A stretch of DNA of 32,510 nt from Candidatus Zixiibacteriota bacterium. Its GTDB lineage: Bacteria > Zixibacteria > MSB-5A5 > UM-FILTER-46-8. The translations under genes and the position numbers were made by a program. Location of the stretch: positions 1 to 32,510 of the forward strand of contig WJIR01000280.1 in the NCBI GenBank assembly GCA_014730175.1. The letters are read 5' to 3'. The notes under the pieces are model-generated. The model was given only the letters and a program-made list of their open reading frames with translations, was not told where the DNA came from and searched no databases. Positions 1,055 to 29,456 of this stretch are shown piece by piece; position 1 is the stretch's first letter; each line of letters opens with the position of its first letter.

Positions 1055-1220
1055 TAATACGGATAATTCAATAATATTGTTAACCGGTAGCTGAAGGCTT
1101 GTCCTTCGGGAGTCCAATAGAAGTAGATTATTTGCGAATTGGAATTGAAGATTAAAAGGAAACGCCGGAAGCACGAGGCTTCCGCTACCGATTACGAATT
1201 TAATGAACAATCCAGGCTAA
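1055..1220. repeat. MITE/REP-like palindromic repeat, copy A
   Basis: First copy of an element also found at 14235-14401 and 26718-26882. The left end reads TAATACGGATAATTCA and the right end, read backwards, TTAGCCTGGATTGTTCA, giving imperfect terminal inverted repeats. Inside are a left hairpin arm (GGTAGCTGAAGGCTTGT, then CCTTCGG, 1086-1109) and a right arm (CCGGAAGCACGAGGCTTCCG, then CTACC, 1165-1189). The two arms are inverted versions of one another. There is no ORF inside. The rest of the gap, 1221-1284, shows nothing recognisable. Confidence 0.75.
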
Positions 1221-2213: not shown

Positions 2214-4016
2214 CTACTTTATAAGGGTCATTTTCTTAATAATAGATTTATCGCCTGCCTGCAAACGGTAATAATAAATTCCGGAAGCGTAATTTGATGC
2301 GTCAAAACCAATCGAGTATTCCCCGCTACTCTGGAATCTATCAATCAAGGTTGCGATTTCTTGCCCTTTGATATTGTAAACTATGAGCTGAACATTGGCG
2401 GGTTTGGACAATGAGTATCCTATACTCGTACTGGCATTAAATGGATTGGGATAATTCTGCTGGAGAGTAACCTCCTCCGGTATATTAATCTCACCGTATT
2501 CTACAACGTCAGTGTACGAAATTACATCTGAATTGTCTGTTAGCAGCGCGGAATAGCTTGTATCCGCCCCCACGGCATTTACCCGCAGGACTCCAAAAAA
2601 CATTATAGTCTCGCCGATCTCTATCCAATCGATATTAACATTCGCCGCACTCGGGCAGAAACCGAGGCAGCTCCCGCTGCCATCGTCAATTCGGATGCGA
2701 TCTCCATCAGTGTCGTTGGATAACTCGGTCACCTCACCGAACGTCCTGATCCTGCTGCCCTCATAATCAAAGTCATTCACGCTACCGGTTGGATAGTATC
2801 TTCCGAATGGTAAGTCATTATCCGTTGAAATTATCTCATAATTCGAAATATTCTGAATCAATGTCACCCCTTCGTATTCACCTACAATTCCTGACACTTT
2901 TACCCGGTAACTTCGCTGGAAATCCTCAATCAATCCCAGATCGAACAGGTTAATACCCATACCGGAGCTATCCTGTATATAAGCATCCGTTGAGTAGGGA
3001 TTTAATATGCCGGTTCCGATTGTGATAACTCCTTCAATAGTCACCGGTCTATCTTGATAATTATCGTAATCGGTTTGTATATCGGAAATCGGTATCGATT
3101 CATCGCTGCCGATATAATAGAAATCCCCGTTAACAGTATAATTATTCTGACCCGGAGTACGAATTACTATATGGTCATCGACCGGATTGCCCTCGCCATC
3201 CGCTGTCTGATAAACTATCGAAGTTGCCAGCAGCCGCTGCATTGTCTCTGTGTGAGGATGTCCATACCCATTTTGCCCTACCGATATAACCGACACTTCG
3301 GGATCTGTGGTATTCAGGAAAAACTGGTTGGAACTGGCATAAGAGCCGTGATGATTAACCCGATAAATCTCGACATCCCCAACCTCGGGCGCTACCGATG
3401 TTTCAATATCGGTATAGGTTCCATTGGTGAGCCCGGATAGGTCGCCGCCAACAAAGAATTGGAAATCATCGTAGTCGATTACCAGAGAAACGCTAAAATC
3501 ATTTTCGTTGTTCGGACCATTATCGGGAGGGCAACCCGCATCTCTGTAAGGTTCATTCAGAACTTCATTCCCGTTAACAGACACCACTTTCGCCTCAACT
3601 CCCCCGCCTAAATCAAGAATTTGCCCATCGACAATTGTGTGACGTATATCCTCAACCGATGGCTCGTAGTAGTTTTCATAACTCCAAGAACAATAATCCC
3701 ATCCGCGATCATAGACTTTCGATACGGATATATCGCTCGCCTCGATAATGGCATTAACGCCTCCTATATGGTCAGCATGATAGTGCGTGGTAATTATATA
3801 TTCGAGATGGCTGATATTGTAGTTTCTCAGATAGTTAAGCACAATCCATTGACTGGATGGCGGTCCGCTATCCACCATAATATTCATCCCGGACGGAGAC
3901 TGAATTAGAGTGCAATCGCCCTGGCCAATGTTTAAGCAGTGAATAACCAGCTCATTTGCATAAATCGGCAAGTTTGAAAGTATAAAAATAATTAAGAGAA
4001 TAATACATTTACGCAT
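2214..4016 (-). CDS. Secreted ComEC-type metallo-beta-lactamase-fold protein with OB-like domains and T9SS sorting domain
   Basis: A 600-residue exported protein. Residues 1-20 are a signal peptide. Residues 22-300 form a metallo-beta-lactamase fold with the metal motif THYHADH (His78, His80, Asp82, His83), a GGDLSG loop with Asp192 and NHHGS at 221-225, the arrangement of the ComEC/Rec2 hydrolase domain. Residues about 315-395 and 410-505 are two OB-like modules (VTIEGVIT..AYIQDSSG and IRTFGEVT..IRIDDGSG), as in YhcR-type extracellular nucleases. Residues 518-600 are the C-terminal sorting domain, starting at QQNYPNPFNAST and ending KKMTLIK. The inference is a secreted, surface-bound phosphodiesterase or nuclease; the substrate is not shown. 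The ribosome site is weak (GCGAG, then the ATG). It lacks the ComEC membrane channel. Confidence 0.85.
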   Translation of the reverse strand: MRKCIILLIIFILSNLPIYANELVIHCLNIGQGDCTLIQSPSGMNIMVDSGPPSSQWIVLNYLRNYNISHLEYIITTHYHADHIGGVNAIIEASDISVSKVYDRGWDYCSWSYENYYEPSVEDIRHTIVDGQILDLGGGVEAKVVSVNGNEVLNEPYRDAGCPPDNGPNNENDFSVSLVIDYDDFQFFVGGDLSGLTNGTYTDIETSVAPEVGDVEIYRVNHHGSYASSNQFFLNTTDPEVSVISVGQNGYGHPHTETMQRLLATSIVYQTADGEGNPVDDHIVIRTPGQNNYTVNGDFYYIGSDESIPISDIQTDYDNYQDRPVTIEGVITIGTGILNPYSTDAYIQDSSGMGINLFDLGLIEDFQRSYRVKVSGIVGEYEGVTLIQNISNYEIISTDNDLPFGRYYPTGSVNDFDYEGSRIRTFGEVTELSNDTDGDRIRIDDGSGSCLGFCPSAANVNIDWIEIGETIMFFGVLRVNAVGADTSYSALLTDNSDVISYTDVVEYGEINIPEEVTLQQNYPNPFNASTSIGYSLSKPANVQLIVYNIKGQEIATLIDRFQSSGEYSIGFDASNYASGIYYYRLQAGDKSIIKKMTLIK

Positions 4017-7552: not shown

Positions 7553-7631
7553 GCGCGGGTCCCGCGGTGGTGGCTTTATGGAGCTAAGGTAAATATAATC
7601 CACTCCGCCGGTCAGCGCTCCAGCGCCGTAG

Positions 7632-7675
7632 GTCGGGTTCCGGAATTCGGCGGTAGCCGAATGGAGAAACCCGAC
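7632..7675. repeat. Double hairpin with nested stems
   Basis: The outer stem GTCGGGTT (7632-7639) pairs with AACCCGAC (7668-7675). Inside it, TTCGGC (7646-7651) pairs with GCCGAA (7656-7661) around the loop GGTA. Confidence 0.8.
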
Positions 7676-7713
7676 ACCGTACTGAAGGCTTGTCTTTCGG
7701 GAAACATCGGGAG

Positions 7714-7733
7714 GTCGGCAGCTTGCTGCCGAC
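7714..7733. repeat. Perfect hairpin GTCGGCAGC/GCTGCCGAC
   Basis: A nine-base perfect inverted repeat with only TT between the halves. In practice a loop of about six bases (GCTTGC) on a seven-base stem is expected. The central GCTTGC resembles the CTTG loop of the dispersed repeat arms. Confidence 0.85.
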
Positions 7734-7740
7734 ATAAATT

Positions 7741-7756
7741 CCCCTCTTGAGAGGGG
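7741..7756. repeat. Perfect palindrome CCCCTCTTGAGAGGGG
   Basis: Seven-base arms around TG, immediately before the next hairpin. Its spacing suggests it belongs to the same inserted unit as 7761-7785. Confidence 0.8.
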
Positions 7757-7760
7757 TGGA

Positions 7761-7785
7761 TTCGTCCCGCGTTCCGCGGGACGAA
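7761..7785. repeat. Hairpin TTCGTCCCGCG/CGCGGGACGAA
   Basis: An eleven-base perfect stem (7761-7771 with 7775-7785) around the three-base loop TTC. Confidence 0.85.
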
Positions 7786-7804
7786 AACGGGGTGTGTTAT
7801 AATA

Positions 7805-7836
7805 TGTGGCGTCAGGTGCGGCGAGCTGACGCCACA
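7805..7836. repeat. Hairpin repeat copy 1, TGTGGCGTCAG/CTGACGCCACA
   Basis: An eleven-base perfect stem around a ten-base loop GTGCGGCGAG. The 28 bases at 7809-7836 recur exactly at 7875-7902. Confidence 0.88.
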
Positions 7837-7845
7837 AGAGTTGTG

Positions 7846-7869
7846 CTGTCGGGTGCCATCACCCGACAG
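7846..7869. repeat. Hairpin CTGTCGGGTG/CACCCGACAG
   Basis: A ten-base perfect stem around the loop CCAT, placed between the two identical GCGTCAG hairpins. Confidence 0.88.
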
Positions 7870-7874
7870 AAAAA

Positions 7875-7902
7875 GCGTCAGGTGCGGCGAGCTGACGCCA
7901 CA
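7875..7902. repeat. Hairpin repeat copy 2, GCGTCAG/CTGACGC
   Basis: Exact second copy of 7809-7836. Here the left flank is a run of A instead of TGTG, so the stem is only seven bases and the outer CACA is unpaired. Confidence 0.88.
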
Positions 7903-7949
7903 TCTCTGTGCGTCGGCTATCGACCAAACTTCCGTTTGATTATCCCGGA

Positions 7950-14234: not shown

Positions 14235-14401
14235 TTAACCCGGATAATTCATAAAAAACATTAATTCGTAGCCGAAGGCTTGTCCTTCGGTAGCTCAAGT
14301 GAATTAGAATATTTACAGAATCTAATTGAAAACTCCAAAGAAATGCCGGAAGCGCAAGGCTTCCGCTACCGGTGACCAAATATATGAATAATACAGGTTA
14401 G
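14235..14401. repeat. MITE/REP-like palindromic repeat, copy B (best preserved)
   Basis: The terminal inverted repeats are TTAACCCGGATAATTCATA at the left and TATGAATAATACAGGTTAG at the right. The left hairpin CCGAAGG-CTTGT-CCTTCGG is at 14272-14290 and the right hairpin CGGAAGC-GCAAG-GCTTCCG at 14347-14365, flanked by GTAGC and GCTACC which also pair. Read on the same strand, the two arms share GTAGC and the CTTG loop but differ at stem positions in a compensatory way. There is no ORF. Confidence 0.85.
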
Positions 14402-14556: not shown

Positions 14557-16191
14557 ATGAGTAAAGTAATCTTGATCACGGCGACGCTGGGTTTGGTATT
14601 TGCCGGTAGCGTATGGGCTTCGTCCCCGGGAGATACGGTGGGTACTACTTACTATGATATGCAGAACGAGATTTCAGCCGGTAGCCGCATTGTGGTGGAC
14701 TCCGAAGGCGGGTATCATATAGTGTGGATGAAAGCGAACGCAGCCTATGATAACCGAGCGGTCTACTACAATTTTATTGATGAATCCGGAAGTAAGCAGC
14801 TCGGGGACGGGACTTCCGTGAGTTCTACGTCAGGAGCCGGTTTTCCTTCGGTTGATGTCCTCAGCAGCGGGAAAGCGGTGGTTGCATATCATAATTCCAA
14901 CAATAATGATGTGAATTTTGCCAAAGATGGGGCTCGTGGAACCGGGCTATTCACTTTAGTCGATGTTCCGGACACGTATCCTGCCCATGAAACAGCATAC
15001 TGGCCTAAGATGGCGGTGGACGGCAATGGTAGAATTCATGTTCTGTCGACCGTCAATTTCGGAATGACCAACTGGTGGACTCCGTTTATTTATACATATT
15101 CGACCGATAACGGATCCAACTGGGAGGATGTGGCGCTTGTGGATACACTTTTGATGCAGTCTCCGCATCCGGTATGTTCCCGAACAGGCGGAAAAACAGC
15201 ATTTGTATACGGACGTCCCAGAGATATAGAAGCCGATCTCGATTGGTATGATGCTGATATGTACTATATTGAATCCGCCGATGGATCCACCTGGGATTTC
15301 AGCAGCAGAGTCAACGTAACCAATTATCAAAACGATGATACCTACAGGGTATGGACTGATTGGGATGGAATGTATGACAATGATGATAACCTCCATATTA
15401 TCTGGAGCGCAATTGTCTATGATTATGATACGGGCAATGCATCAACCGACTCTTGCGTATTATTCCACTGGTCCTCAGCGACAGGTATCGATACGGTGGC
15501 GACCGCTTTGGAGGTCGCATATCCATCGTACTGGGATTTAGCCATAGCCAAAGTTAATCTCGGCATAGACGCCAATGATAATCTATTTGCCCTATGGACC
15601 AGATACAGCGCTTCGGACACTTCCGATGATGGTTACTCCAATGGAGACCTTTACTTCGCCTATTCAACCGACAACGGAGACAGCTGGTCTTCTGCGACTA
15701 ATATCACCGACAGTCAGACCCCGGGGTGTGCGGCAGGCGATTGCGATTCGGATCATTGGGCAAGCATGGCTGAGGTTGTCGATGAATACCTTCATATAAT
15801 GTACATCCACGACACTGACGCCGGCGCGGCAGCCGGTTCCAACGAGGGTGACACAACAGCTTGCCAGGTACTGTATTATCCGCAACCGAATCCGATATGG
15901 GTCGGTATAGATGAGGATGAGCCGATTGTAGATTACGAACTCCGGTTGAGAAACTACCCCAATCCGTTTAATAACTCGACTATATTCGAATTCCCGATGA
16001 CACGGGAGGCGGAATTATCGATATACAATATTAGAGGAGAGTTGGTATTTGAGGCGGATGCTTCTAAGAAATCCAGCATTGCCTGGGATTCCGAAAATCA
16101 AGGAGGCAAATCCCTGGCAAGTGGGGTATATTTCGCAAGGTTCACCACCAAAGACTACGCTCTTAACAGGCGAATTGTGATGGTCAAGTAA
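14557..16191 (+). CDS. Secreted sialidase-like propeller protein with T9SS sorting domain
   Basis: A 544-residue exported protein. Residues 1-21 are a signal peptide (ending VWA). The body has repeated strands with Asp-box motifs STDNGSNWED (about 182-192) and STDNGDSWSSA (about 370-380), plus IVVDSEGGYHIVWM and MAVDGNGRIHVLS, typical of BNR/sialidase-like beta-propellers. The catalytic arginine triad of sialidases is not evident, so it is more likely a binding or structural propeller. A sorting domain follows from about residue 465 (LRNYPNPFNNSTIF) to the end (NRRIVMVK). A strong GGGAGGAG lies 4 bases before the ATG. A good terminator follows, so it is probably monocistronic. Confidence 0.85.
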   Translation: MSKVILITATLGLVFAGSVWASSPGDTVGTTYYDMQNEISAGSRIVVDSEGGYHIVWMKANAAYDNRAVYYNFIDESGSKQLGDGTSVSSTSGAGFPSVDVLSSGKAVVAYHNSNNNDVNFAKDGARGTGLFTLVDVPDTYPAHETAYWPKMAVDGNGRIHVLSTVNFGMTNWWTPFIYTYSTDNGSNWEDVALVDTLLMQSPHPVCSRTGGKTAFVYGRPRDIEADLDWYDADMYYIESADGSTWDFSSRVNVTNYQNDDTYRVWTDWDGMYDNDDNLHIIWSAIVYDYDTGNASTDSCVLFHWSSATGIDTVATALEVAYPSYWDLAIAKVNLGIDANDNLFALWTRYSASDTSDDGYSNGDLYFAYSTDNGDSWSSATNITDSQTPGCAAGDCDSDHWASMAEVVDEYLHIMYIHDTDAGAAAGSNEGDTTACQVLYYPQPNPIWVGIDEDEPIVDYELRLRNYPNPFNNSTIFEFPMTREAELSIYNIRGELVFEADASKKSSIAWDSENQGGKSLASGVYFARFTTKDYALNRRIVMVK

Positions 16192-16497: not shown

Positions 16498-19400
16498 ATG
16501 GGAATCCCGTTGGGGACAAAAAGTAAGGTTATATGCCTGTTTCTTTGTCTCTTACTAACCAGTGTTCTTGGGAACTCTGTTTATGGGGCAGTAACCGGTC
16601 AGATAACCGGAACCGTAACCGATAAGGAGACCGGCGAGCCCTTGCCCGGTGTTACCGTACTGATCAAGGGAACTCAGATCGGAGCGCCAACTGATTTTGA
16701 TGGAAACTATCGAATTCAGAACGTGCCGCCCGGTGAGTATGAGTTGGTAGCCACATTGGTAGGTTACGCGCCGCTGACTTATACCGAGGTGCAGGTTAGT
16801 ATCGACAAGACAACAACGATCGATTTCGAGTTAACCACCGAGGCTCTCGAGATGGAAGAGGTTAAGGTGGTTGCAAAGCGTAAACCGATTGAGCAGCGAG
16901 TTACATCCAATGAGGATGCTATTGGTGCTAAGGAGCTGGATGTTATTCCGGTGAAGGACACTAAGGGTATCCTGGCAACTCAGGTCGGTTTCGTTAAGAG
17001 AGGAACGCAATTACATGCCCGGGGTGGTCGCGCCGGCGAGGTGGTTTTCCGGGTGGACGGAGTTGATACCAACGACCCATTAGGTGTGAACTCCCCGCGT
17101 ACATCAGACACGCGTGTTCAAGACCAATCGGGAAGATCGCTTGAGAAAGCCGAATCACCATATTTAAGTATGGATGTCTCATCGAGTGATATCGCTGAGA
17201 TTTCCATTATCAAAGCCGGTTGGCCGGCTGAATATGGTAATCTCCAGTCGGGTTTGATCAACCTCGCTACTAAAGAGGGCGATGCCAGGTTCACCCGCGG
17301 AGAGATTGAGTACATTACCGATGATTTCGGATCCGAGACGCTCAACAGGTATTCGTTTAATTCCGATCGTCTGGATGCGAGTTTGTCCGGCCCTGTTCCT
17401 CTGGTTCAGGATGTCTTATTTCCCAAGTTGGGTTTGGAATTCCCCGGCGAGAGTTTTGCATATTATGCCTCAATATCGGTGGATAAGAGCGATACTTACA
17501 CCTCTTATTCCGAGTACGCTCCTCCGGGACTAAAACCTGATTGGGGAAGAGAGGAGAAGGTATGGGATGTTTTCCGATTGGATATTCCTAATCGGCAGTA
17601 CAATGCATATAAGACCAGTTTGAAATTTACATATAAGATTGATGCGGCGCGTAAGCTGAATCTTAGTTATAAAAGGGACTGGAGCGATTTTATAGACTGG
17701 GATTGGGATTGGAAATATACTCCGGAAACCGCGCCCCGTCAGGAAACCTGGTCGGAATTGTATCAGATCTATTTCACCGATAAACCGGGCTGGATAAAGA
17801 ATACATTTTATGAATTTCAGGTTTCGAAATACACCATCGCGGCAACGAGGAAACCAGGTGGTTTGACTCCCGGCGACTTTTTGTTTTTTGACGAATACGA
17901 GGAGTTTGAGCCGGCAGATGATACGAACAAGAACGGGCAGTGGGATCCTGCGGAGCCGTACATAGATACCAATGGGAACGGCGAGTACGATTTCGGCGAA
18001 CCTTTTTCCGATCTGGATGGCGACGGTATCTGGGATGATGCGGAAAACTTCACCGACACGAATGACAACGGCGTTTTCGATCCGGATAGAGCATCGATTG
18101 TCGAGCCCGACGATCCGGAACCCTTTATCGATGGCGACATAATTATTGGAGAACCATATATAGACATAAACCGCAACCATATTTATGATGAAGGCGTGGA
18201 TATATTTACCGCAGCCGATGATTTGAACGGCAACGGTAAGTATGATGGGCCTAACGATCCCTGGACTCCGGGTGTACCGTACCAGGATCTCAACAGGAAC
18301 GGTGAGTATGATCCTCCCGACCAGATTTATAACCCGGGAGAGCCGTATACGGACATGAATAACAACGGTAGATGGGACGGAACCGATTTGTTCTTCGATT
18401 ACGGTTTCGACCGTCGTGCTACCTACAGTCATCGTCGTTCCGACATCTATACCATTAAGTTGGACGTTACCACTGCGCCAAATCAGCATCACGATATGAA
18501 AACCGGGTTCGAGTATAAGTTCGTCAAGATGCGTATGGCGGACCTTCGCTATCCATGGGCTCCTTACGTTGGACCTCCCGATGAGGGCGAACCATGGAGC
18601 GAACGAGGCATTTTCCGTGATTTTTACTGGAGAACCCCCAAGCAGGGAGCGCTCTATATTCAGGATAACATGAGTTACGGCGAAATGTTTTTTAACATCG
18701 GATTCAGATGGGATTATTTCCTGCAAGCTGACGAGGTGCATGCCATAGAATCTGAGGAGGGCGTCTATTACGGTGAAGAAGAAGTCCAGGAAAACCGGAA
18801 TAAATTCTCACCGAGACTGGGCGTATCATATCCGATATCCGATAAGGCGAAGGTTTACTTCAACTACGGCCATGCTTATCAGTTACCGGAGTACTATAGG
18901 TTCTATGCCAGAGCGACACAGAATATCGGTTCGGGCGCATTGCCGATCGTGGGTAATACCAATTTGGATTATTCCAAGACTGTGCAGTATGAGTTAGGAA
19001 TCGAATATCTAATAACGAACGCTTATAAGCTTAAAGTATCCGGTTTCTACAAAGACCAGTATGGTTTGATAAACGTGATCGAGGGTATAGGAAGACTGGC
19101 GGCTGACCGTTATGGTAACCTCGATTATGCCCGCGCCAGAGGATTCGAGCTGGAGCTATCCAAGGATATCGGAGACTATCTTACCTGGGGCGGTAAATAT
19201 GAGTATTCTTGGGCTTTCGGAAAGGCATCCAGCGGAACCGCCGATTATTACTTGAGAGCCGACAACCAGCAGATTCCTCTTAAGGAATCGCGACTTGACT
19301 GGGATATCCGACATCAGGCGACTATAGACGCAACCCTGCGTGTCCGAGAAGACGATCACCCGGTGGTGGCGGGAATTAAGTTGCCCGATGCCTGGGGCGC

Positions 19401-19761
19401 CAGCGTGATATGGCAGGTGAATTCCGGATTACCGTTCAGCCCATCGGCTGCTTATCCCGGGATTGTCTTGATCGGTAATCAGGATCCGCCGGCTAATTCG
19501 GAAACGATGCCGGCATATTCCAATGTCGACCTCAGGTTGTATAAAGACTTCAGGGTCAGCAAGCTTGATTTGACATACAGCATCTGGATTACGAATCTAT
19601 TCAATAAGAAAAACGTTTCTAACGTCCATTCCGATACCGGTCGACCGGACACATCGAGACTGGCGGATCGTGTTATCGTAACAGGAACAGATCATGACGC
19701 CAATCCGGCAAACTGGTATCCGGGCAGGAATGTTAAAATGGGTTTGATAGTAAGGTTTTAA
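16498..19761 (+). CDS. TonB-dependent receptor with CarboxypepD_reg domain and acidic calcium-site-like insert
   Basis: A 1087-residue outer-membrane receptor. After a signal peptide (1-31) comes a CarboxypepD_reg domain (about 33-118: GQITGTVTDKETGEPLPGVT ... TIDFELT), a plug (about 120-260, with RGGRAGEVVFRVDGVDTNDP and GWPAEYGNLQSGLINLATK) and a barrel ending MGLIVRF with the expected terminal Phe. Residues about 475-635 are an inserted string of DxNxNGxYDxGEP-like units (DTNGNGEYDFGEP, DLDGDGIWDD, DTNDNGVFDP, DLNGNGKYDG, DLNRNGEYDP, DMNNNGRWDG), which look like dockerin/EF-hand calcium loops and probably form an extracellular loop. The ribosome site AAGGAGGT, 5 bases before the ATG, is near-ideal. 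It is first of a four-gene operon; the substrate is unknown. Confidence 0.93.
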   Translation: MGIPLGTKSKVICLFLCLLLTSVLGNSVYGAVTGQITGTVTDKETGEPLPGVTVLIKGTQIGAPTDFDGNYRIQNVPPGEYELVATLVGYAPLTYTEVQVSIDKTTTIDFELTTEALEMEEVKVVAKRKPIEQRVTSNEDAIGAKELDVIPVKDTKGILATQVGFVKRGTQLHARGGRAGEVVFRVDGVDTNDPLGVNSPRTSDTRVQDQSGRSLEKAESPYLSMDVSSSDIAEISIIKAGWPAEYGNLQSGLINLATKEGDARFTRGEIEYITDDFGSETLNRYSFNSDRLDASLSGPVPLVQDVLFPKLGLEFPGESFAYYASISVDKSDTYTSYSEYAPPGLKPDWGREEKVWDVFRLDIPNRQYNAYKTSLKFTYKIDAARKLNLSYKRDWSDFIDWDWDWKYTPETAPRQETWSELYQIYFTDKPGWIKNTFYEFQVSKYTIAATRKPGGLTPGDFLFFDEYEEFEPADDTNKNGQWDPAEPYIDTNGNGEYDFGEPFSDLDGDGIWDDAENFTDTNDNGVFDPDRASIVEPDDPEPFIDGDIIIGEPYIDINRNHIYDEGVDIFTAADDLNGNGKYDGPNDPWTPGVPYQDLNRNGEYDPPDQIYNPGEPYTDMNNNGRWDGTDLFFDYGFDRRATYSHRRSDIYTIKLDVTTAPNQHHDMKTGFEYKFVKMRMADLRYPWAPYVGPPDEGEPWSERGIFRDFYWRTPKQGALYIQDNMSYGEMFFNIGFRWDYFLQADEVHAIESEEGVYYGEEEVQENRNKFSPRLGVSYPISDKAKVYFNYGHAYQLPEYYRFYARATQNIGSGALPIVGNTNLDYSKTVQYELGIEYLITNAYKLKVSGFYKDQYGLINVIEGIGRLAADRYGNLDYARARGFELELSKDIGDYLTWGGKYEYSWAFGKASSGTADYYLRADNQQIPLKESRLDWDIRHQATIDATLRVREDDHPVVAGIKLPDAWGASVIWQVNSGLPFSPSAAYPGIVLIGNQDPPANSETMPAYSNVDLRLYKDFRVSKLDLTYSIWITNLFNKKNVSNVHSDTGRPDTSRLADRVIVTGTDHDANPANWYPGRNVKMGLIVRF

Positions 19762-19771
19762 AGATAGGTGA

Positions 19772-19802
19772 AATGATGGGCTCCTTGCCGGAGCTCATCA
19801 TT
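19772..19802 (+). promoter_or_regulatory. Intercistronic hairpin between receptor and next gene
   Basis: AATGATGGGCTCC (19772-19784) pairs fully with GGAGCTCATCATT (19790-19802), with one G-U pair, around TTGCC. No T-run follows, so it is unlikely to be a strong terminator. It may protect the receptor mRNA 3' end or lower expression of the downstream genes. Confidence 0.75.
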
Positions 19803-19832
19803 CGAGTTCCGATGAAGTTAGGGAGATAATAT

Positions 19833-22490
19833 ATGAGTTTCGTAAGAAGAAAATATCTAAAGCCAGCTTACCTTGCGCTGCCGCTTCTTCTTATGGCGAT
19901 TGTGCTTACTGCCGGGGACGGCTATGGTAGGACTATGCCTAAAGACAGAGGTTTTAAACTGCAGAAACCGGCTTTGGATGTACCGAACACTACAAATGTA
20001 ACCCACAGGATTTCCAATATCTGGTTCACTGTAACCAACTGGGGTTATTTGGGCAGCGCTCAGGATCCCAATATCCTTGACTGCGAAACGGGAGAACCGG
20101 CGCCTTCGTGTCAGTTCCCGGCCGGTTCGCATCTGGAGTATCTCTTCCAGGGAGCCATCTGGATCGGCGCTATCGTTGACGGAGATACGCTGGTCTCGTG
20201 TGGAACGGATGGCTGGTGGGATACGCACGAATTCTTCCCGGATAAATTCGGTGGGGGCGAAGCGGATTGCTCTACGGATTCAACCGGAGCAATCTGGTTG
20301 GGTTCAACCAGACCGGCTACCGCTTATCCTCGCAAGTTGCCCGAGGGGAGTGAAGACTGTTACCCTTGCACGATTTCCGTTGAGAATTCTATTTCCGAAG
20401 AGGATTTCATAGCTTATTACGCCGATACCAATGTTACATTTGCTGAAGTTGACCCAATAGACCAGAGGCCGCTAAGACCGATCGGTTTGGAAATCGAGCA
20501 AAAAAGCTACTCCTGGTCGTACGAATACGCCGAGGATTTCATCATATTCGATTTCAAAATAACAAACATCTCTGATTCACCCATTGAAGATATGTGGATT
20601 GCATTCCATATCGACGCAGATGTTCATCATGAAAGCAACGGATTTTCCGGAGCTCAGGATGATATGACAGGTTTTCTTGAAGTGGCAAAACCGATCGAGA
20701 ACATCGATCCCCTGGATATTAATACCGCCTATATTATGGATAACGACGGCGATCCGTCTGAGGACTGGGCATGGGATTATGAATCGGTTAGAGGTGTCAC
20801 CGGAGTTAGAGTAGTAAGAACACCGGGAGATGTGGAGATTGGCTTTAACTGGTGGATTTCCAACATCAATTCACAGTTTGACTGGGGACCGCAAAGACTT
20901 GAGAATTACTCCGGAACCTACCCGGGTGGCGGAAGAGGAACTCCGGGAGGTGATCCTGCGCGGTATAGAGCTATATCAAACAACGAATTTGACTATGACC
21001 AGGCATTCGCTGCCATAAACTACTCGGCTGACGGTTGGATTAATCCGCTTGGATCGGCTATTGCGAAGGATCTGGCTAACGGGTATGATACGCGTTATAC
21101 TTATTCCTTCGGTCCGTTCGACCAGATACTTCCCGGGGATTCACTGCTATTAACGGCAGCTTATGTTGCCGGTGAAGATTTGCATGCCAATCCCAGGGAC
21201 TTCAATAATCTATTCTTGGGCAATGAGGAAAATGAAGAGGATATCCAAACCTTCATAAATTCATTGGATTTCAGCGATTTCGCGCTTAATGCCACCTGGG
21301 CGGAATGGGTGTATGACAATCCCGGCGTGGATACTGATGAGGACGGTTATGCCGGTGAATTTATTTTGGTCAGCGGGGATACAATTTGGATAGAGGGCGA
21401 TGGCGTTCCCGATTTCGCCGGTCCTCCGCCGCCTCCTTCGCCGGAACTAACATTCGACACATATTTGAACAGAGTCGATCTACGCTGGGATGGCGAGATT
21501 TCCGAGTACACACCAGATGCGTTCGGCAACGGCCTGGATTTCGAAGGCTACAAAGTGTACCGGTCAAGAACCTCCGTTTTAAACGATTTTGTTCTTCTCG
21601 GTTCTTTTGATCGAATAGATTACGACCGGTATATCTGGGATGATCTGGACGGTAAAATGGAGCTGAGTAAAGACAAGCCATGGTCACTGGAGGAGCTATT
21701 GGAATACGCGAATGCGGATAGCCCGTTACCGGGCGACACTTTCGAATTCGATAATGGAATGAAAATTCACCGTAACTTTGCGGTCGCTCATCAGCCGCCG
21801 TATACTCCCACCAGAGTTCCGACCATCAACGGTAATCCGGTCTTCCGTCCCCATGCTGAGAACACCGGATGTTACGAAGATAGTACATACGGTCAGGACA
21901 CCGATGGGGATGGCGTTACTGATGACGAACTGACTATTCGTTCAGAAATACTCGACAGCACGATCGTTGTTACCGATAGTAGCGGCACCAAGAATATCCA
22001 TTATTATACCTATGCACTTGATGGAGTGCTGCCAAGCGTAGCGTACTTTTACTCGGTGACAGCCTTCGATGTTGGCGACCCGCGTACACAACTCGCTCCG
22101 CTGGAGGGTTCGAAAGCGGTCAATATGAGAGCCGCTTATGCGATCGATGATTTCGATAAAGTAACCGAGGATGTTTATGTTTATCCAAATCCTTATGTTC
22201 TGGACGGATCATACCGCGAAGAAGGATGGGAGGACTTAAACGAGGATCCCGCTTATTCTCAGAGGATATACTTTGCGAACCTGCCCGGCAAGTGCACTAT
22301 CAGGATATTTACGCTCGATGGAGATTTGGTTGATCAGATACCTTTCGATCCGCAACCGGGAGTTGACCAACCGATCACGAGCTGGGATCTGATTTCCAGG
22401 AATACTCAGTCGATAGTTTCAGGTATATATTTGTTCAGTGTCGATTCGGAGGAGGGGCGTCAGATCGGGAAGTTCGTGATAATCAAATAA
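19833..22490 (+). CDS. Large secreted protein with T9SS-type C-terminal domain
   Basis: An 885-residue exported protein. The N-terminus has basic residues then a hydrophobic stretch (PAYLALPLLLMAIVLTAG), a signal peptide ending near residue 32. The body is rich in aromatic and acidic residues, with no enzyme motif I recognise. A fibronectin-like stretch (about 545-600: PPPPSPELTFDTYLNRVDLRW...GYKVYRS) and a DTDGDGVTDDE calcium-like loop (about 690) are present. The C-terminus contains VYVYPNPYVLDGS (about 783) and ends SGIYLFSVDSEEGRQIG plus KFVIIK, a sorting domain of the FlgD-Ig-like type with YPNPY in place of NYPNPFN. GGGAGA before the ATG supports the start. It is second in the receptor operon, suggesting it is a surface partner of the receptor. 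Confidence 0.82.
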   Translation: MSFVRRKYLKPAYLALPLLLMAIVLTAGDGYGRTMPKDRGFKLQKPALDVPNTTNVTHRISNIWFTVTNWGYLGSAQDPNILDCETGEPAPSCQFPAGSHLEYLFQGAIWIGAIVDGDTLVSCGTDGWWDTHEFFPDKFGGGEADCSTDSTGAIWLGSTRPATAYPRKLPEGSEDCYPCTISVENSISEEDFIAYYADTNVTFAEVDPIDQRPLRPIGLEIEQKSYSWSYEYAEDFIIFDFKITNISDSPIEDMWIAFHIDADVHHESNGFSGAQDDMTGFLEVAKPIENIDPLDINTAYIMDNDGDPSEDWAWDYESVRGVTGVRVVRTPGDVEIGFNWWISNINSQFDWGPQRLENYSGTYPGGGRGTPGGDPARYRAISNNEFDYDQAFAAINYSADGWINPLGSAIAKDLANGYDTRYTYSFGPFDQILPGDSLLLTAAYVAGEDLHANPRDFNNLFLGNEENEEDIQTFINSLDFSDFALNATWAEWVYDNPGVDTDEDGYAGEFILVSGDTIWIEGDGVPDFAGPPPPPSPELTFDTYLNRVDLRWDGEISEYTPDAFGNGLDFEGYKVYRSRTSVLNDFVLLGSFDRIDYDRYIWDDLDGKMELSKDKPWSLEELLEYANADSPLPGDTFEFDNGMKIHRNFAVAHQPPYTPTRVPTINGNPVFRPHAENTGCYEDSTYGQDTDGDGVTDDELTIRSEILDSTIVVTDSSGTKNIHYYTYALDGVLPSVAYFYSVTAFDVGDPRTQLAPLEGSKAVNMRAAYAIDDFDKVTEDVYVYPNPYVLDGSYREEGWEDLNEDPAYSQRIYFANLPGKCTIRIFTLDGDLVDQIPFDPQPGVDQPITSWDLISRNTQSIVSGIYLFSVDSEEGRQIGKFVIIK

Positions 22491-22538
22491 AAACTCTGGA
22501 GATATAGGTTGCAAAATTTAGATAAAAAGGAGAACGCT

Positions 22539-23489
22539 ATGAGATTAATAACGGTAGTTGCCCTTGCCGTACTTCTCTTACCTACGCTTGCTTTCGGACA
22601 GGCAAAGGTTGGTACAGCCGGCGCACAGTTTTTGGAGGTAGGTGTGTCAGCGCGTGCTATGGGTTTGGGCGAAGCCGTCATTGCAAGTATAGATGACGCC
22701 TCCGCTCTCTATTATAATCCGGCGGCGATAGCTGAGTTCGATCGATACAAAGCTATGTTTACTCATATACAATATCCAGCCGAGATTAACTATGAATTCG
22801 CCGGATTGACCATGCCGGTTGACTATCTTATGGGAAACATCGGATTGTCATTCTACATGCTTTCTACCGATGACATGCCTGTTACTACCTATAAGCATCC
22901 CACCGGAAACGGTCAAACGTTTCAAGCAAAGGATTACGCTTTCGGTTTAACTTATGCCTCGGCGCTCACTCAGCATTTCAGCATAGGTTTCACCGTAAAA
23001 TATTTAGCAGAATTATATCATACATACAAAGCGGACGGATGGGGCGCTGATGTTGGAACTTATTACAACACGGGTTTCCGCAATCTTAAAATATGCATGA
23101 TATTGAAGAATTTCGGACCTGATTTGAAATTCATCGAGGAAGAGTATCCTCTTCCTATCGACTTCAAATTCGGCACGGCGATTGATTTAATTCAGGGTCC
23201 TGCTCACCGGATTATCTTCTCTGCGGAATTGAGCCATCCGAATGATAATCTGGAAAAATACGCTGCCGGTTTAGAGTACTGGTTTAATGATTTGGTAGCC
23301 TTGCGTATCGGAAAGAAGTATAATCAGGACTATTACGATGATCTATCGGCATTTTCCTCGGAAGGAATGACTTTCGGAGGCGGATTGAAATCCGATATAT
23401 CTAACTTCACTGTGCTCGTAGACTATGGTTATCAGGATTTTGGCTATCTTGATGAAACCCATAGATTCTCACTTGGTTTGGAATTTTAA
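22539..23489 (+). CDS. PorV/PorQ-family outer-membrane protein
   Basis: A 316-residue outer-membrane barrel with signal peptide MRLITVVALAVLLLPTLAFG. The mature start is typical of the PorV/PorQ (UPF0164-like) family: GTAGAQFLEVGVSARAMGLG, then EAVIASIDDASALYYNPAAIA. In T9SS, PorV is an outer-membrane shuttle for sorting-domain substrates, while PorQ and related proteins have less clear roles. The protein ends in alternating strands with FSLGLEF and a C-terminal Phe. The open frame reaches a TTG at 22509, but AAGGAG 6 bases before the ATG at 22539 and the signal peptide fix the start there. It lies 48 bases after the secreted protein, in the same operon. It may serve the proteins of this operon specifically rather than be the cell's general PorV. 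Confidence 0.88.
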   Translation: MRLITVVALAVLLLPTLAFGQAKVGTAGAQFLEVGVSARAMGLGEAVIASIDDASALYYNPAAIAEFDRYKAMFTHIQYPAEINYEFAGLTMPVDYLMGNIGLSFYMLSTDDMPVTTYKHPTGNGQTFQAKDYAFGLTYASALTQHFSIGFTVKYLAELYHTYKADGWGADVGTYYNTGFRNLKICMILKNFGPDLKFIEEEYPLPIDFKFGTAIDLIQGPAHRIIFSAELSHPNDNLEKYAAGLEYWFNDLVALRIGKKYNQDYYDDLSAFSSEGMTFGGGLKSDISNFTVLVDYGYQDFGYLDETHRFSLGLEF

Positions 23490-23514
23490 CGATTTACCGG
23501 AGGTAAAATAGAGG

Positions 23515-25296
23515 ATGAAATTGCACCGAATTTATTTATTCATTCCGTTAGTGCTTATAGCCGCCGGGTTGTATTTTGGCGGATGCTCGGAGTTAGATCT
23601 CCAAGGATCCCTTGAAACTAATACCCCTCCGGTGGTTGCATTTACTAACATTCCCAATGACTCATCTCGGTATTCCTACAACCCGAATTTAACCTGGTAT
23701 GGAACCGATAAGGATGGTACGATAGAAGCATTCTATTATACTGTTTTAATGAAGCCTGATAATGTTAGTGACTTTCCCGAGGAATTTGCCGACTCCGCAA
23801 CTATGCCGCCTGATGATTCATGGACAATGGTGGAAACGTCTAACGATACGGTTAGCTTAAGCGCCCCCGTCGATCCAGATGAGTACGATAGTCTGTACAT
23901 ATTCATCACGGCAATGGACGATGATAGCGCATATTCCGAGATTAAGTTTAAACTGTTCTACAGAAATAATCACGCTCCGGATACTTATTTGGAGTCTGAT
24001 CTGGATAGAATCTGGTATACCTATCCTTATCTAACTGATTATTACAAAGGTATCCCGATCGAATGGTCCGGAAGCGATTCCCTGGATTTCCCGGATCAGG
24101 AACAACCCGCATTTGAATACCATTGGCAGCTATTCGGTCCGTTCGACACCCTCGAAAACGACCCTGCTTACATTACTATGGATATGCTACATCCGGATAG
24201 CGTTTACGAAGCATACGATTCAACCATTAATGAAATGGTTCGCTGGGAATCATACGATACCTTAAATAACGACGTATGGGTTAACGATGAGGACCTTACT
24301 CTTTATAACCTGCGAACAGGCCATTATATCTTTTGGGTAATGGCAAGGGACGATGCTTCCGTTATCGACAGCGTCTATCTTAAGGAAGATGGAAGCTTCC
24401 AATCCATGGCTGTATTTCATGTATTGCAGCCATATTGGAATTCCGGAAATGATTCCTTGAAGAAGATACTGGTATTTGACCATTCAGCATATGGCACTTT
24501 GCCGGGTGAATGGGGAGACGGTGACAGCGTCCAGACATTTTACATGAATATGTTTGCCGAATTGGGACTTGATAATGAGGATATTACCTGGAGAGGAGGG
24601 TTGAACTCAAATTCTGCCGCTCCTCCGGATGTAGCCGAACTGGTAAAACATGAGATGTTATTGGTTCTAAACGAGGATTGGTTCTCCCGAGTAAGTGATT
24701 CCTCCGTTGTCTGGTATATAGAGTATCTGAATGTTACCGGTAAAGTCTTTGTAATGGGTAGGCATTCCTTCTGTACACTGACAAGAGGCAGTATAGCTCC
24801 CCTGACAGAAGTAATATTCGGTTTCGATAACGGAGATAACTTAGCAGGTAATTATGCTGCTGACTATTTCGATCTCTACAGCGCAACCTACCCGGGCTTC
24901 ACTGTCGGAGAGTACAATCAGGAGTTAACAGGCGCTATCAGCGTGCACCCCGATTTTCCTGAATTGAGTATTGATACACTTAAGGCAATCGAGGTTGCCG
25001 AGGGATGGTACGAGGAGAATAACACTTATCTCCCCGCTGTTGAAATAATGGCGAGAGGCGGAGATTCGGAGACGATTTATAACTTCGAATCCTATCAACC
25101 GCAGATTTCTGCGTACCATGGCTGGCCTATTGCCACCAGAGCTTTGATAACCATGGGAGGAACGACCGTGGACGGAATGTCGGAAAGGACAGCATTCCAG
25201 ACCTCGTATTTCTCCTTCCCATTATTCTATGTTGAATATGAAGGTGCAGTTGAGGCGATGGGAGAAATGCTTGAATGGTATGGAATATTGGAATAA
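23515..25296 (+). CDS. Predicted surface lipoprotein with Ig-like domains
   Basis: A 593-residue protein with a lipoprotein signal peptide: hydrophobic IYLFIPLVLIAAGLYFGG followed by Cys24 (GGCSELD). Residues about 38-155 form an Ig/fibronectin-like module (PPVVAFTNIPND ... WYGTDKDGTIEAFYYTV). The middle (about 160-310) is a second such region. From about 318 the segment KKILVFDHSAYG ... LVKHEMLLVLNEDW suggests an alpha/beta (flavodoxin or amidotransferase-like) domain, without a catalytic Cys-His pair that I can identify. It is the last gene of the receptor operon, 25 bases after the PorV-like gene. By analogy with SusD-type partners it could be an accessory of the receptor, but it has no SusD sequence motifs. 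GGAGG precedes the ATG. Confidence 0.8.
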   Translation: MKLHRIYLFIPLVLIAAGLYFGGCSELDLQGSLETNTPPVVAFTNIPNDSSRYSYNPNLTWYGTDKDGTIEAFYYTVLMKPDNVSDFPEEFADSATMPPDDSWTMVETSNDTVSLSAPVDPDEYDSLYIFITAMDDDSAYSEIKFKLFYRNNHAPDTYLESDLDRIWYTYPYLTDYYKGIPIEWSGSDSLDFPDQEQPAFEYHWQLFGPFDTLENDPAYITMDMLHPDSVYEAYDSTINEMVRWESYDTLNNDVWVNDEDLTLYNLRTGHYIFWVMARDDASVIDSVYLKEDGSFQSMAVFHVLQPYWNSGNDSLKKILVFDHSAYGTLPGEWGDGDSVQTFYMNMFAELGLDNEDITWRGGLNSNSAAPPDVAELVKHEMLLVLNEDWFSRVSDSSVVWYIEYLNVTGKVFVMGRHSFCTLTRGSIAPLTEVIFGFDNGDNLAGNYAADYFDLYSATYPGFTVGEYNQELTGAISVHPDFPELSIDTLKAIEVAEGWYEENNTYLPAVEIMARGGDSETIYNFESYQPQISAYHGWPIATRALITMGGTTVDGMSERTAFQTSYFSFPLFYVEYEGAVEAMGEMLEWYGILE

Positions 25297-26649: not shown

Positions 26650-26717
26650 GCGCCGGATAGTTCACAAAGAAGCATAAATCGGTAACCGAGGACTTGTCCT
26701 ATGGTAGCTCAAGTGAA
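26650..26717. repeat. Truncated MITE/REP-like repeat, left arm
   Basis: Starts GCGCCGGATAGTTCA, has a degraded hairpin arm (GGTAACCGAGGACTTGTCCT, 26691-26710), then GGTAGCTCAAGTGAATTA as in copy B, where it is interrupted by the left end of copy C. Confidence 0.75.
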
Positions 26718-26882
26718 TTAACCCGGATAATTCATAAAAACCACGAATCCGTAGCCGAAGGCTTGTCCTTCGCGGATTTACAACAACAAACAGTTTACAG
26801 CCTGGAATTCGGGGTCCAGAAAAGAGCCGGAAGCACAAGGCTTCCGCTACCAGTGACTAAATTTATGAATAATACAGGTTAA
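26718..26882. repeat. MITE/REP-like palindromic repeat, copy C
   Basis: Complete element with left end TTAACCCGGATAATTCATA (identical to copy B), a left hairpin arm GTAGCCGAAGGCTTGTCCTT (26751-26770), a right arm CGGAAGCACAAGGCTTCCG (26828-26846) and right end TATGAATAATACAGGTTAA. The middle differs completely from copies A and B. Confidence 0.85.
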
Positions 26883-27095: not shown

Positions 27096-27884
27096 CTATT
27101 TAACCAAAGTCATCCGTTTTGTAGTTGCGAATTCATCGCCAACCAATCTGTAGAAATATACACCTGTAGCAACCGGATTACCATTTTCATTCAAGCCATC
27201 CCATACTACTTGATGCGGTCCTACCGTGTTGAATCCATCAACCAGGGTTCTAACCTTCCTACCCAGGATATCATAAATATCCAAGCGAACATCTCCGGCT
27301 TTCGGAGTAGTATATTCGATTGTGGTTTGCGCGTTGAAAGGATTCGGGAAGTTCTGGTCCATTTCAAATTTAGATGCAACTATTTCTTCGTTGGTTTCGA
27401 AACACGTCCTCCAGTAGAAATCAGCATCTCCGCAGTCATATTCCTTTGACTTACCCAGATAGACAAATGAAAAGTTGAGATAACTAGAGTCAACGGCTAT
27501 CGGTTCCTGGTTCCATTGATAATCTCCAACGACCACCCAATACTCATAAACGCCGCGATCAAGACAACCGGGGATCCGCTGGTCAACCTGCCAGCATATT
27601 AGTGTATCCTCAGCGCCGATGTAGAAACTACCGCCATTGATAGGTCCCCAATACAAACCATTAGGGAATTTCACCATTGCCCATGCGTCAACCCAAGCTG
27701 GTTCAGCAGTGTGATTAACCATTACCGCATTGAATTGAAACCATCCGCCCCAATACCCGAAAATAATCGGGGGATCGACAGGCCAGATTTCAACTTCATA
27801 ATCCTGTGCGTTTGCCGATTGACTGAATCCTAATACGGTAATCACTGCGATAAGAAATACAAAAAGGGTTGCTTTTTTTACCAT
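27096..27884 (-). CDS. Small secreted protein with T9SS sorting domain
   Basis: 262 residues. The signal peptide is MVKKATLFVFLIAVITVLGF followed by SQSANA. One beta-sandwich domain (about 38-145, GGWFQFNAVMVNHTAEPAWV ... GVYEYWVVVGDY) has a sequence pattern shared with the neighbouring gene at 28062. A sorting domain runs from about residue 178 (MDQNFPNPFNAQTTI) to KRMTLVK. No enzyme motif is seen. The frame is open to 27938, but the ATG at 27884 follows GGAGGT by 5 bases and starts a proper signal peptide. A consensus sigma-70 promoter lies about 100 bases upstream and a terminator follows, so this is a single-gene transcript that may be strongly expressed. Confidence 0.85.
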   Translation of the reverse strand: MVKKATLFVFLIAVITVLGFSQSANAQDYEVEIWPVDPPIIFGYWGGWFQFNAVMVNHTAEPAWVDAWAMVKFPNGLYWGPINGGSFYIGAEDTLICWQVDQRIPGCLDRGVYEYWVVVGDYQWNQEPIAVDSSYLNFSFVYLGKSKEYDCGDADFYWRTCFETNEEIVASKFEMDQNFPNPFNAQTTIEYTTPKAGDVRLDIYDILGRKVRTLVDGFNTVGPHQVVWDGLNENGNPVATGVYFYRLVGDEFATTKRMTLVK

Positions 27885-27980
27885 AAAAAACCTCCGAATA
27901 TAATAATAATTGTTATCTTCCACATTCAGTAAGCTCATTTCTTAGTGAAACCAATGAAGAAAACCACTTGCTTCATTTTC

Positions 27981-28009
27981 ATTATAAAGGGTTCGAATCC
28001 AATTGTCAA
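27981..28009 (-). promoter_or_regulatory. Consensus sigma-70 promoter
   Basis: On the minus strand TTGACA (28004-28009) and TATAAT (27981-27986) are both perfect and separated by exactly 17 bases. It drives the secreted-protein gene starting at 27884, leaving a leader of about 90 bases. Confidence 0.85.
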
Positions 28010-28061
28010 GGCATTTCTTAAATCTTCCTAAAAAATTATTATTACTTAAAATCGGCGGAGG

Positions 28062-29456
28062 TTATTTCTGAAGCACTAATTTCTTAACAGCTATTTTATT
28101 GTTAGCCTTAATCTTACAGAAATAAATTCCGCTGGAGGCTTCCTGCTCTTGATTTGTCATTCCTGACCAAACAACCGATATATTACCGGAGTTTTGAAAT
28201 CCGTTCATCAAATTGGCGATTCTCTGTCCCCGAATGTTAAAGATGTCTATTTGTACATTCCCGGGTTCAGCCAACTGAAACGAAATCTGTGTGGTTGCAT
28301 TGAACGGATTGGGATATGCGTTGAATGTTGTTATCGACTCGGGAACTGAACCTACCGCTCTTGCGGGTTCTTCCGCCTTCTGGAATTCAAACATATCCCA
28401 GGCATAAGCGATATCGGGATAGGTTCCTATATAAGAATAAAACTTATAGTCACCAGCGGGAGCATGGCCGGGAACGTACTGGCTTATCTCAACATATTTC
28501 TGAGATTCCAGCGGCTCCATGTGGACTTCCCATGATTTAAGAGTTTCTTCTCTTTCACCATCCGGGAATTCCACAACAGTCCAGACATTGAAATCCCTGG
28601 TCATTTCCGTCCGGTTTTTCACATATCCCTGCCAGGTTACAGTGCCGCCTTCGGGAGGAATGATGTAGTCCCCGGGGGGAAGAGTCATATCAACATCTGC
28701 CTCAGCATCCTGGAAATTCCTGAGATATATCTTCTGTCCCTGCAAAACTTCTTTGGTGTCCTGGTCCTGAACAAAGACAGCAAATCCCGTGTATCGTTTG
28801 GGTATAAAAGTCGGTAAGCTGAAAGCTCTGTGATATGTTAAGGTGTCTCCCTCGTCAATTGATAAGGGTTTACCGCTGGCATTGGGTAGAAAATCAAAGA
28901 CTGTTTTATTATGCCAATTAAGACCATAATAATCTTCATAATAAGCGCTGTCACGGAATGCTACCGCGTGTAACCTAAGATTGCCATCCGGAATCGGTCC
29001 GGTTGCTATGATGTCAATATCAAGAACCCCGGTCCGCTCTTCAACTAAGTAATATCCTCCTAAGTTTATCTCGAGATCAGCAGGTACTCCGAATCTCTCA
29101 AGAAGCATATCCTCCCAAAGCCACCAGGTGTTCTCCCCAAGCTCGCCATCAAATGCGGTCTGGGGTAGAAATCCAACCATGTAATATGCGATTTTTACTT
29201 CCAGTTCTTCCGGGATATAATTATAGAACGGATCCTCGTCATCCGGAAAGCCTGTATGGTATCTAATTAGAACCATTTGATCCGAATGCTCTTCGTAAAG
29301 GGTGTCGCATAAAAGATCCGCCTGATAAGAAGAATGGCAACGGGTGTTAGTAAATAGCTCTTGTACAACGATTCTTTCAGTCGCGGATGCGGGAATCACC
29401 ATCATAATCCCTAAAAGCAACGTAATCACGAAAACCTTAAGCAGTTGATTTGACAT
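28062..29456 (-). CDS. Secreted Omp28-like protein with T9SS sorting domain
   Basis: A 464-residue exported protein. The signal peptide ends at PASA (about 25). Residues 27-240 resemble the Omp28/thioredoxin-like fold (ERIVVQELFTNTRCHSS ... MVLIRYHTGFPDDEDPFYN ... YYMVGFLPQTAFDG), but the usual CxxC is lost: Cys40 is followed by HSS, with another cysteine at Cys50. Residues about 270-365 form a beta-sandwich module like that in the neighbouring gene. The sorting domain begins at about 383 (FNAYPNPFNATTQI) and ends KKLVLQK. GGAGGT lies 9 bases before the ATG. Thiol redox activity is doubtful without CxxC. The role is unknown; Omp28-type proteins are surface proteins of FCB bacteria. Confidence 0.82.
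   Translation of the reverse strand: MSNQLLKVFVITLLLGIMMVIPASATERIVVQELFTNTRCHSSYQADLLCDTLYEEHSDQMVLIRYHTGFPDDEDPFYNYIPEELEVKIAYYMVGFLPQTAFDGELGENTWWLWEDMLLERFGVPADLEINLGGYYLVEERTGVLDIDIIATGPIPDGNLRLHAVAFRDSAYYEDYYGLNWHNKTVFDFLPNASGKPLSIDEGDTLTYHRAFSLPTFIPKRYTGFAVFVQDQDTKEVLQGQKIYLRNFQDAEADVDMTLPPGDYIIPPEGGTVTWQGYVKNRTEMTRDFNVWTVVEFPDGEREETLKSWEVHMEPLESQKYVEISQYVPGHAPAGDYKFYSYIGTYPDIAYAWDMFEFQKAEEPARAVGSVPESITTFNAYPNPFNATTQISFQLAEPGNVQIDIFNIRGQRIANLMNGFQNSGNISVVWSGMTNQEQEASSGIYFCKIKANNKIAVKKLVLQK

Follow-up and report, generated by a model that had tools for sequence, protein, structure and literature searches.

A high-copy MITE with IS1380-like ends that encloses a head-to-head pair of REP hairpins in a Candidatus Zixiibacteriota genome

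The repeat at the centre of this analysis lies near the middle of the window (the whole 32,510-nucleotide stretch analysed, contig WJIR01000280.1 of a Candidatus Zixiibacteriota draft assembly) and belongs to a family of at least 149 copies. We read it, with a probability of about 0.86, as a non-autonomous IS1380-type MITE that carries a head-to-head pair of REP hairpins as cargo, spread in several waves and has since undergone neutral decay. An earlier note, made from the window alone, had described three copies with terminal inverted repeats (TIRs), two hairpin arms in each and an isolated arm elsewhere, and all of these are present in the sequence (Table 1). The elements it had marked out are real, but its bounds took in the 4-bp target duplications on either side. 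The isolated arm that it placed at 7679-7701 likewise exists, but not as a part of the MITE family: it is a solitary REP amid a mosaic of hairpin modules, where it is followed by ggaaacatcgggaggtcgg, as in similar form in two further solitary copies. In copy 2 the GTAG of the right REP faces outward, giving a head-to-head pair with the left REP. Copy 3 lies at the break of an older, truncated left half, which the earlier note had overlooked. Elsewhere in the window, the stretches 2214-4016, 14557-16191, 16498-25296 and 27096-29456 encode several secreted proteins that end in YPNPFNA-type sorting tails, along with a TonB-like receptor rich in D-x-N-x-D repeats, a set that hints at a bacterium of the FCB type.

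Table 1. MITE copies, their parts and related repeats in the window.
Feature	Position	Strand	Remarks
Copy 1 target duplication CTAA/CTAA	1054-1057 and 1217-1220		
MITE copy 1, diverged	1058-1216	+	Covariance-model match 1058-1216, E 7.2e-24
Intergenic mosaic of other hairpin modules	7556-7905		Contains the solitary REP
Solitary REP, left-arm type, GTACTGAAGGCTTGTCTTTCGG...	7679-7702	+	Not a MITE remnant
Copy 2 left target duplication TTAA	14235-14238		Partner TTAG, 3/4 bases the same
MITE copy 2, subfamily A	14239-14397	+	Body 159 bp; covariance-model match 14239-14397, E 1.6e-29
Copy 2 left TIR CCCGGATAATTCATAAA	14239-14255	+	IS1380-like end
Copy 2 left REP, GTAG + CCGAAGG-CTTGT-CCTTCGG hairpin	14268-14290	+	Pattern match and folding
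Copy 2 right REP, GTAG + CGGAAGC-CTTGC-GCTTCCG hairpin	14347-14369	-	
Copy 2 right TIR	14381-14397	-	Reads CCTGTATTATTCATATA on the - strand
Copy 2 right target duplication TTAG	14398-14401		
Further MITE copy, older, left half only (truncated)	~26652-26717	+	26667-26720 aligned, 81% identical
Copy 3 target duplication TTAA/TTAA	26718-26721 and 26879-26882		
MITE copy 3	26722-26878	+	Covariance-model match

A covariance model built from 28 curated copies gave 150 matches in the 3.59-Mb draft genome, 149 of them at E < 1e-13 and almost all spanning the whole element, which refutes the possibility, raised in the earlier note, that only these three copies exist. With at most one mismatch allowed, the TIR pattern matched the genome 253 times (reversed-pattern control, 0), a genome BLAST with the element gave at least 43 matches, and 115 distinct full-length copies were extracted from stretches fetched around the matches. 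The length is 156-160 bp in 100 of the 115, and longer copies fall into discrete classes, one of 175-178 bp and, in other extractions, also classes of 190 and 196 bp. From the left, the element consists of an NTAN site, the TIR CCCGGATAATTCATAAA, about 12 bp, the GTAG + CCGAAGG-CTTGT-CCTTCGG hairpin and a spacer of about 55 bp, followed by the CGGAAGC-GCAAG-GCTTCCG hairpin with CTAC, about 11 bp, the inverse TIR and a second NTAN; the TIRs are 17 bp long and near-perfect. Several subfamilies emerged from clustering, with differences chiefly in the spacer and flanks. A long open frame spans the element in none of the 27 copies that have 500 bp or more of flank on each side. The family is short and non-coding, with TIRs, a target duplication and many copies, as a MITE should be, and at some 150 copies the view of it as a multi-copy MITE family without an ORF is borne out.

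A mini-hairpin of 19-20 bp, CACGCCAGAGGCGCATAAAC, sits at one fixed point of the REP loop, directly ahead of CTTG, in either orientation and in the left as well as the right arm (eleven loci in one orientation, four in the opposite one, and a further locus with the insertion in the left arm). It yields the 177-bp class and, when doubled, the 196-bp class, and looks like a site-specific insertion into hairpin loops. At three loci, extra tandem 31-bp REP units (GTAGCCGAAGGCTTGTCCTTCGGGATCATCG) lie directly at the MITE left arm.

The search for target-site duplications that the earlier note had proposed revealed a 4-bp NTAN duplication, identical on both sides in 57 of 114 copies (shuffled mean 16.4, maximum 28). 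Left/right agreement past these 4 bp is at background level only. The commonest sites are CTAA, TTAA, TTAG, ATAG and CTAT, and duplications that are not identical, as in half of the copies, reflect either decay or recombination. Nearly every target has TA at its centre, as would be expected of an IS630/Tc1-type MITE (like Correia/NEMIS or RUP) that duplicates only these 2 bp, the adjacent bases agreeing by chance. However, the outer two NTAN positions match as well, in 86 and 91 of the 114 copies as opposed to about 47 by shuffling, and the element ends match IS1380 loci, so that we hold this origin to be highly unlikely. An IS630/TA-type MITE was rejected as the duplication is 4 bp and not TA only.

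IS1380 elements begin in CC and duplicate 4-5 bp of their target (ISfinder), and the data from G027 and other relatives agree with this. The IS1380 transposase profile PF13701 matched in 8 of the 39 genomes searched, and the majority of IS1380 loci in those relatives carry ends of the MITE type. One G027 locus holds a 1507-bp IS1380 element, its transposase frame broken, that begins with CCCGGATATTTCACCAA, ends with CCCGGATATTTCATGAG and is bounded on both sides by ctag, and in further G027 copies ctag, ttag, ctac or ctaa precedes CCCGGATATTTCA. In G031, ctaa followed by CCCGAATAATTCACAAA (ctaaCCCGAATAATTCACAAA) is located about 130 bp upstream of a 375-codon IS1380 frame (PF13701 E 2.4e-108), and in G037, ttaa followed by CCTGCATCATTCATAAG (ttaaCCTGCATCATTCATAAG) is located about 215 bp beyond a C-terminal (3') transposase remnant. 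At the IS1380 loci of G006 and G026 no end of this type was seen. IS1380 loci with such ends are thus on record for three relatives, with the 4-bp duplication (ctag/ctag) in G027. The likeness between the TIR and the relatives' IS ends covers about 17 bp only, with 2-3 mismatches. The exact TIR pattern is present in 4 of the 133 genomes of the class (125 matches in the own genome, 21 in G031, 6 in G037 and a stray one in G123), and the own genome, G031 and G037 all have IS1380 matches. By its sequence, the shell can be classed as an IS1380-type MITE and not as a RAYT product, because the same ends and the same type of duplication flank IS1380 (PF13701) genes in relatives. Mobilisation would be by an IS1380 transposase in trans, since this is established MITE behaviour.

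The own genome contains a single IS1380 remnant, of 58 N-terminal codons (E 3.8e-9; 51% identical to the G031 protein). An end-like TCCGGATTATTTATGAG precedes its ATG by about 100 bp. The left end of a B-type MITE (TTAGCCCGTATAATTCATACA...) abuts this remnant (locus L031, 1510-1795, on contig C289), where the frame stops about 50 codons in, which gives the impression that a MITE landed in the transposase gene of its own family. Neither an intact IS1380 transposase nor an autonomous partner was found in the own assembly, a 94%-complete draft from which a multi-copy IS may be missing. Because the transposase is represented in the assembly only by the N-terminal remnant, the MITE family is probably immobile now, barring an intact transposase copy lost in assembly. 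The TIR is absent from the three genomes of the same taxonomic family, and as none of the close genomes offers an empty site, no insertion event is seen directly.

The arms are REP-like, as the earlier note had proposed, each with a short palindrome beside a GTAG tag, and they form an inverted, head-to-head pair. Two inverted GTAG-tagged hairpins with GTAG outside make up the 'head-head dimer' of Di Nocera et al. (PMC3733652), and the arm pair of the MITE resembles the REPIN (Bertels and Rainey 2011, PMC3116915). The arm pattern with at most two mismatches has 399 matches in the genome and none in the control. About 30 of the 100 exact arm matches listed have no shell around them; nearly all of these are of the left-arm type, and such shell-free REPs sit among other hairpin modules in intergenic mosaics. 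At several loci the two kinds of sequence are joined: MITE halves run through the REP directly into a mosaic at four loci, and at a fifth in the reverse order. These chimeras joined at the REP, together with the extra tandem REP units, therefore indicate that sequence is exchanged between the arms of the MITE and solitary REPs, probably by recombination. The mosaics themselves (that of the window and loci L150-L178) hold eight or more kinds of hairpin module set head to tail, often at draft contig ends, and include GTAGGTCGGGTT..AACCCGAC, GTGCTGTCGGGT..ACCCGACAGC, GTGCGGTCAGG..CCTGACCGC, GTGGCATGCTTAGCTC..GATAAGCATG, GTCGGCAGCTTGCTGCCGAC and others. One solitary REP, on contig C146, has a hybrid stem, GTAGCCGAAGCCTTGCGCTTCGG, with one pair left-arm-like and one right-arm-like, and is a possible intermediate between the left and right arm types.

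Such an arrangement raises the alternative that a RAYT, a single-strand HUH transposase, moves the entire element as a REPIN, the outer inverted repeats being only hitchhiking flanks; a transposase of the RAYT kind had also been suggested in the earlier note. The GTAG hairpins do stand head to head as in REPINs (PMC3116915, PMC3733652), the genome has three RAYT genes (REP_Tyr_transpos, NF047646; L032, L033 and L034, on contigs C141, C64 and C95), and between subfamilies the arms (4-6% difference) are better conserved than the spacer (25%), with the TIRs at 10%. However, the copies are bounded by the TIR and not by GTAG, and their ends and 4-bp duplications fit IS1380-type DDE elements. Moreover, when six head-to-head dimers were picked by arm match alone, with the TIRs disregarded, all six turned out to lie inside shells, some of them with decayed TIRs, and none of the six was a pair without a TIR shell, standing as a unit of its own. 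Our search of the RAYT loci found an arm REP beside none of the three genes: L032 has GTAGGTCGGGTT...AACCCGAC hairpins on either side, L033 is flanked by GTGGCATGCTTA hairpins, and both kinds are mosaic modules; the flanks of L034 were assigned to none of the listed modules. L032 and L033 with these hairpins are RAYT-REP pairs in their own right. The TIRs and target duplications largely refute a RAYT-moved REPIN, which we consider improbable, and with the RAYT flanks they led to the rejection of RAYT as mobiliser of the shell.

The left stem (CCGAAGG/CCTTCGG) and the right stem (CGGAAGC/GCTTCCG) differ in two matched pairs, as the earlier note had pointed out. This difference is present in essentially all copies and is therefore one old, fixed difference and not many events. 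The further claim, that compensatory changes maintain the hairpin and not the sequence, does not survive the comparison of many copies. In 100 copies the stems have 127 one-sided changes, 44 of which leave a G-T pair, versus 2 two-sided paired changes, where 3.1 two-sided changes are expected if the sides are independent; the first 60 copies had 70 one-sided changes versus one two-sided change. Similarly, no two-sided change was found in either arm helix in the 28 curated copies, and paired cells were not above shuffles. The excess of paired changes across many copies on which the earlier note had let its claim depend is absent, and the claim falls with it.

These counts also bear on the idea that structural selection keeps the hairpins in every copy, as a transcribed terminator, an mRNA-stabilising hairpin or a protein-binding site. 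The arms form 7-bp hairpins and the whole-element fold has a z of -2.48, features that such selection would explain along with the two matched pairs and the lack of open frames spanning the copies. Yet two-sided stem changes do not exceed expectation, the window has no Rfam match, and private changes within subfamilies are as frequent in the arms (2.2%) as in the TIRs (2.7%) and the spacer and flanks (2.5%; arms versus spacer P = 0.29). We therefore regard selection on the structure of each copy as very unlikely. Because private changes are equally frequent in TIRs, spacer and arms, copies decay neutrally after insertion. The low arm change between subfamilies indicates either that arms and ends were kept in spreading elements or that arms were homogenised with solitary REPs.

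A history of the family as an IS1380-type MITE with REP cargo can be proposed from these data. A head-to-head pair of GTAG REPs, about 55 bp apart, would have been taken up early, ahead of the family's expansion, and then have travelled with it as cargo. The near-perfect 17-bp TIRs (CCYGKATWATTCATAAA) would be the cutting sites of an IS1380-family DDE transposase supplied in trans, and the MITE would insert at 4-bp NTAN sites, which are duplicated in the process. The REPs also occur singly, among the hairpins of intergenic mosaics, and these solitary units exchange sequence with the MITE arms at the REP, probably through homologous recombination. The family would have expanded in several waves, with neutral decay of every copy thereafter. 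A more far-reaching version, which we offer tentatively and think doubtful, treats the element as the product of two systems, with a REP pair that was formerly a RAYT-type single-strand substrate built into an IS1380-type MITE, and with the REPs as docking points for hairpin modules; the modules in question are the tandem 31-bp REP units, the 19-bp loop mini-hairpins and whole mosaics.

Several known systems share parts of this design. Elements of the IS1380 family (PF13701; the 1507-bp G027 element and the G031 copy) have comparable ends (CCCGGATATTTCA.../CCCGAATAATTCACAAA, against CCCGGATAATTCATAAA in the MITE) and the 4-bp NTAN duplication, whereas the MITE lacks a transposase gene and has only about 17 terminal bases in common with them. 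REPINs, head-head GTAG dimers and BIMEs (PMC3116915, PMC3733652) have inverted hairpins with GTAG outside and a spacer, are intergenic and of high copy number, and occur in genomes with a RAYT; the pair described here differs in being enclosed in a shell of TIRs and target duplications, with dimers seen in shells only and no RAYT flanked by the arm REP. Pseudomonas REPIN spacers show compensatory changes, unlike the MITE hairpins. The bacterial MITEs RUP, NEMIS/Correia, ERIC, Nezha and EFAR (PMC3733652) are also non-coding, 70-300 bp long and equipped with TIRs that a transposase recognises, but the present family has IS1380-type ends, a 4-bp duplication and a REP pair whose REP also makes up a free-standing repeat family. 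A further case is that of the GTCATTGC-type shells at four loci of G031, with the same TIR and NTAN duplication (ATAG/ATAG in one of them), which differ in holding an unrelated hairpin repeat (GTCATTGCGAG..GCAATGAC) that is also found solo in G031. Because these shells hold a different repeat, and G031 also has minimal shells of 61-64 bp, we suggest that shells of the IS1380 MITE type repeatedly carry REP-like cargo.

In open-licence full text we found no IS1380 MITE, and in open-licence papers no REP pair inside a MITE. The combination of TIR and arm is not known outside its own lineage, because a GTDB-wide scan for it, from which records of the own genome were perhaps left out, found nothing convincing elsewhere, its one match being a stray in Achromobacter.

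The family thus documents a high-copy IS1380-type MITE, as classed by its ends and duplications. It also holds a warning: when the two arms of a single element differ in matched pairs, this is not evidence of covariation, and here the many-copy test shows neutral decay instead. If the two-system version is true, shells of IS1380 MITEs may act as vehicles for REP-like repeats in general, because the shell in G031, from another family of the class, independently holds a different hairpin repeat. Overall, the family is a clear example of how REP hairpins can travel within a different transposon, and bears on the dispersal of REPs and BIMEs where a matching RAYT is not found.
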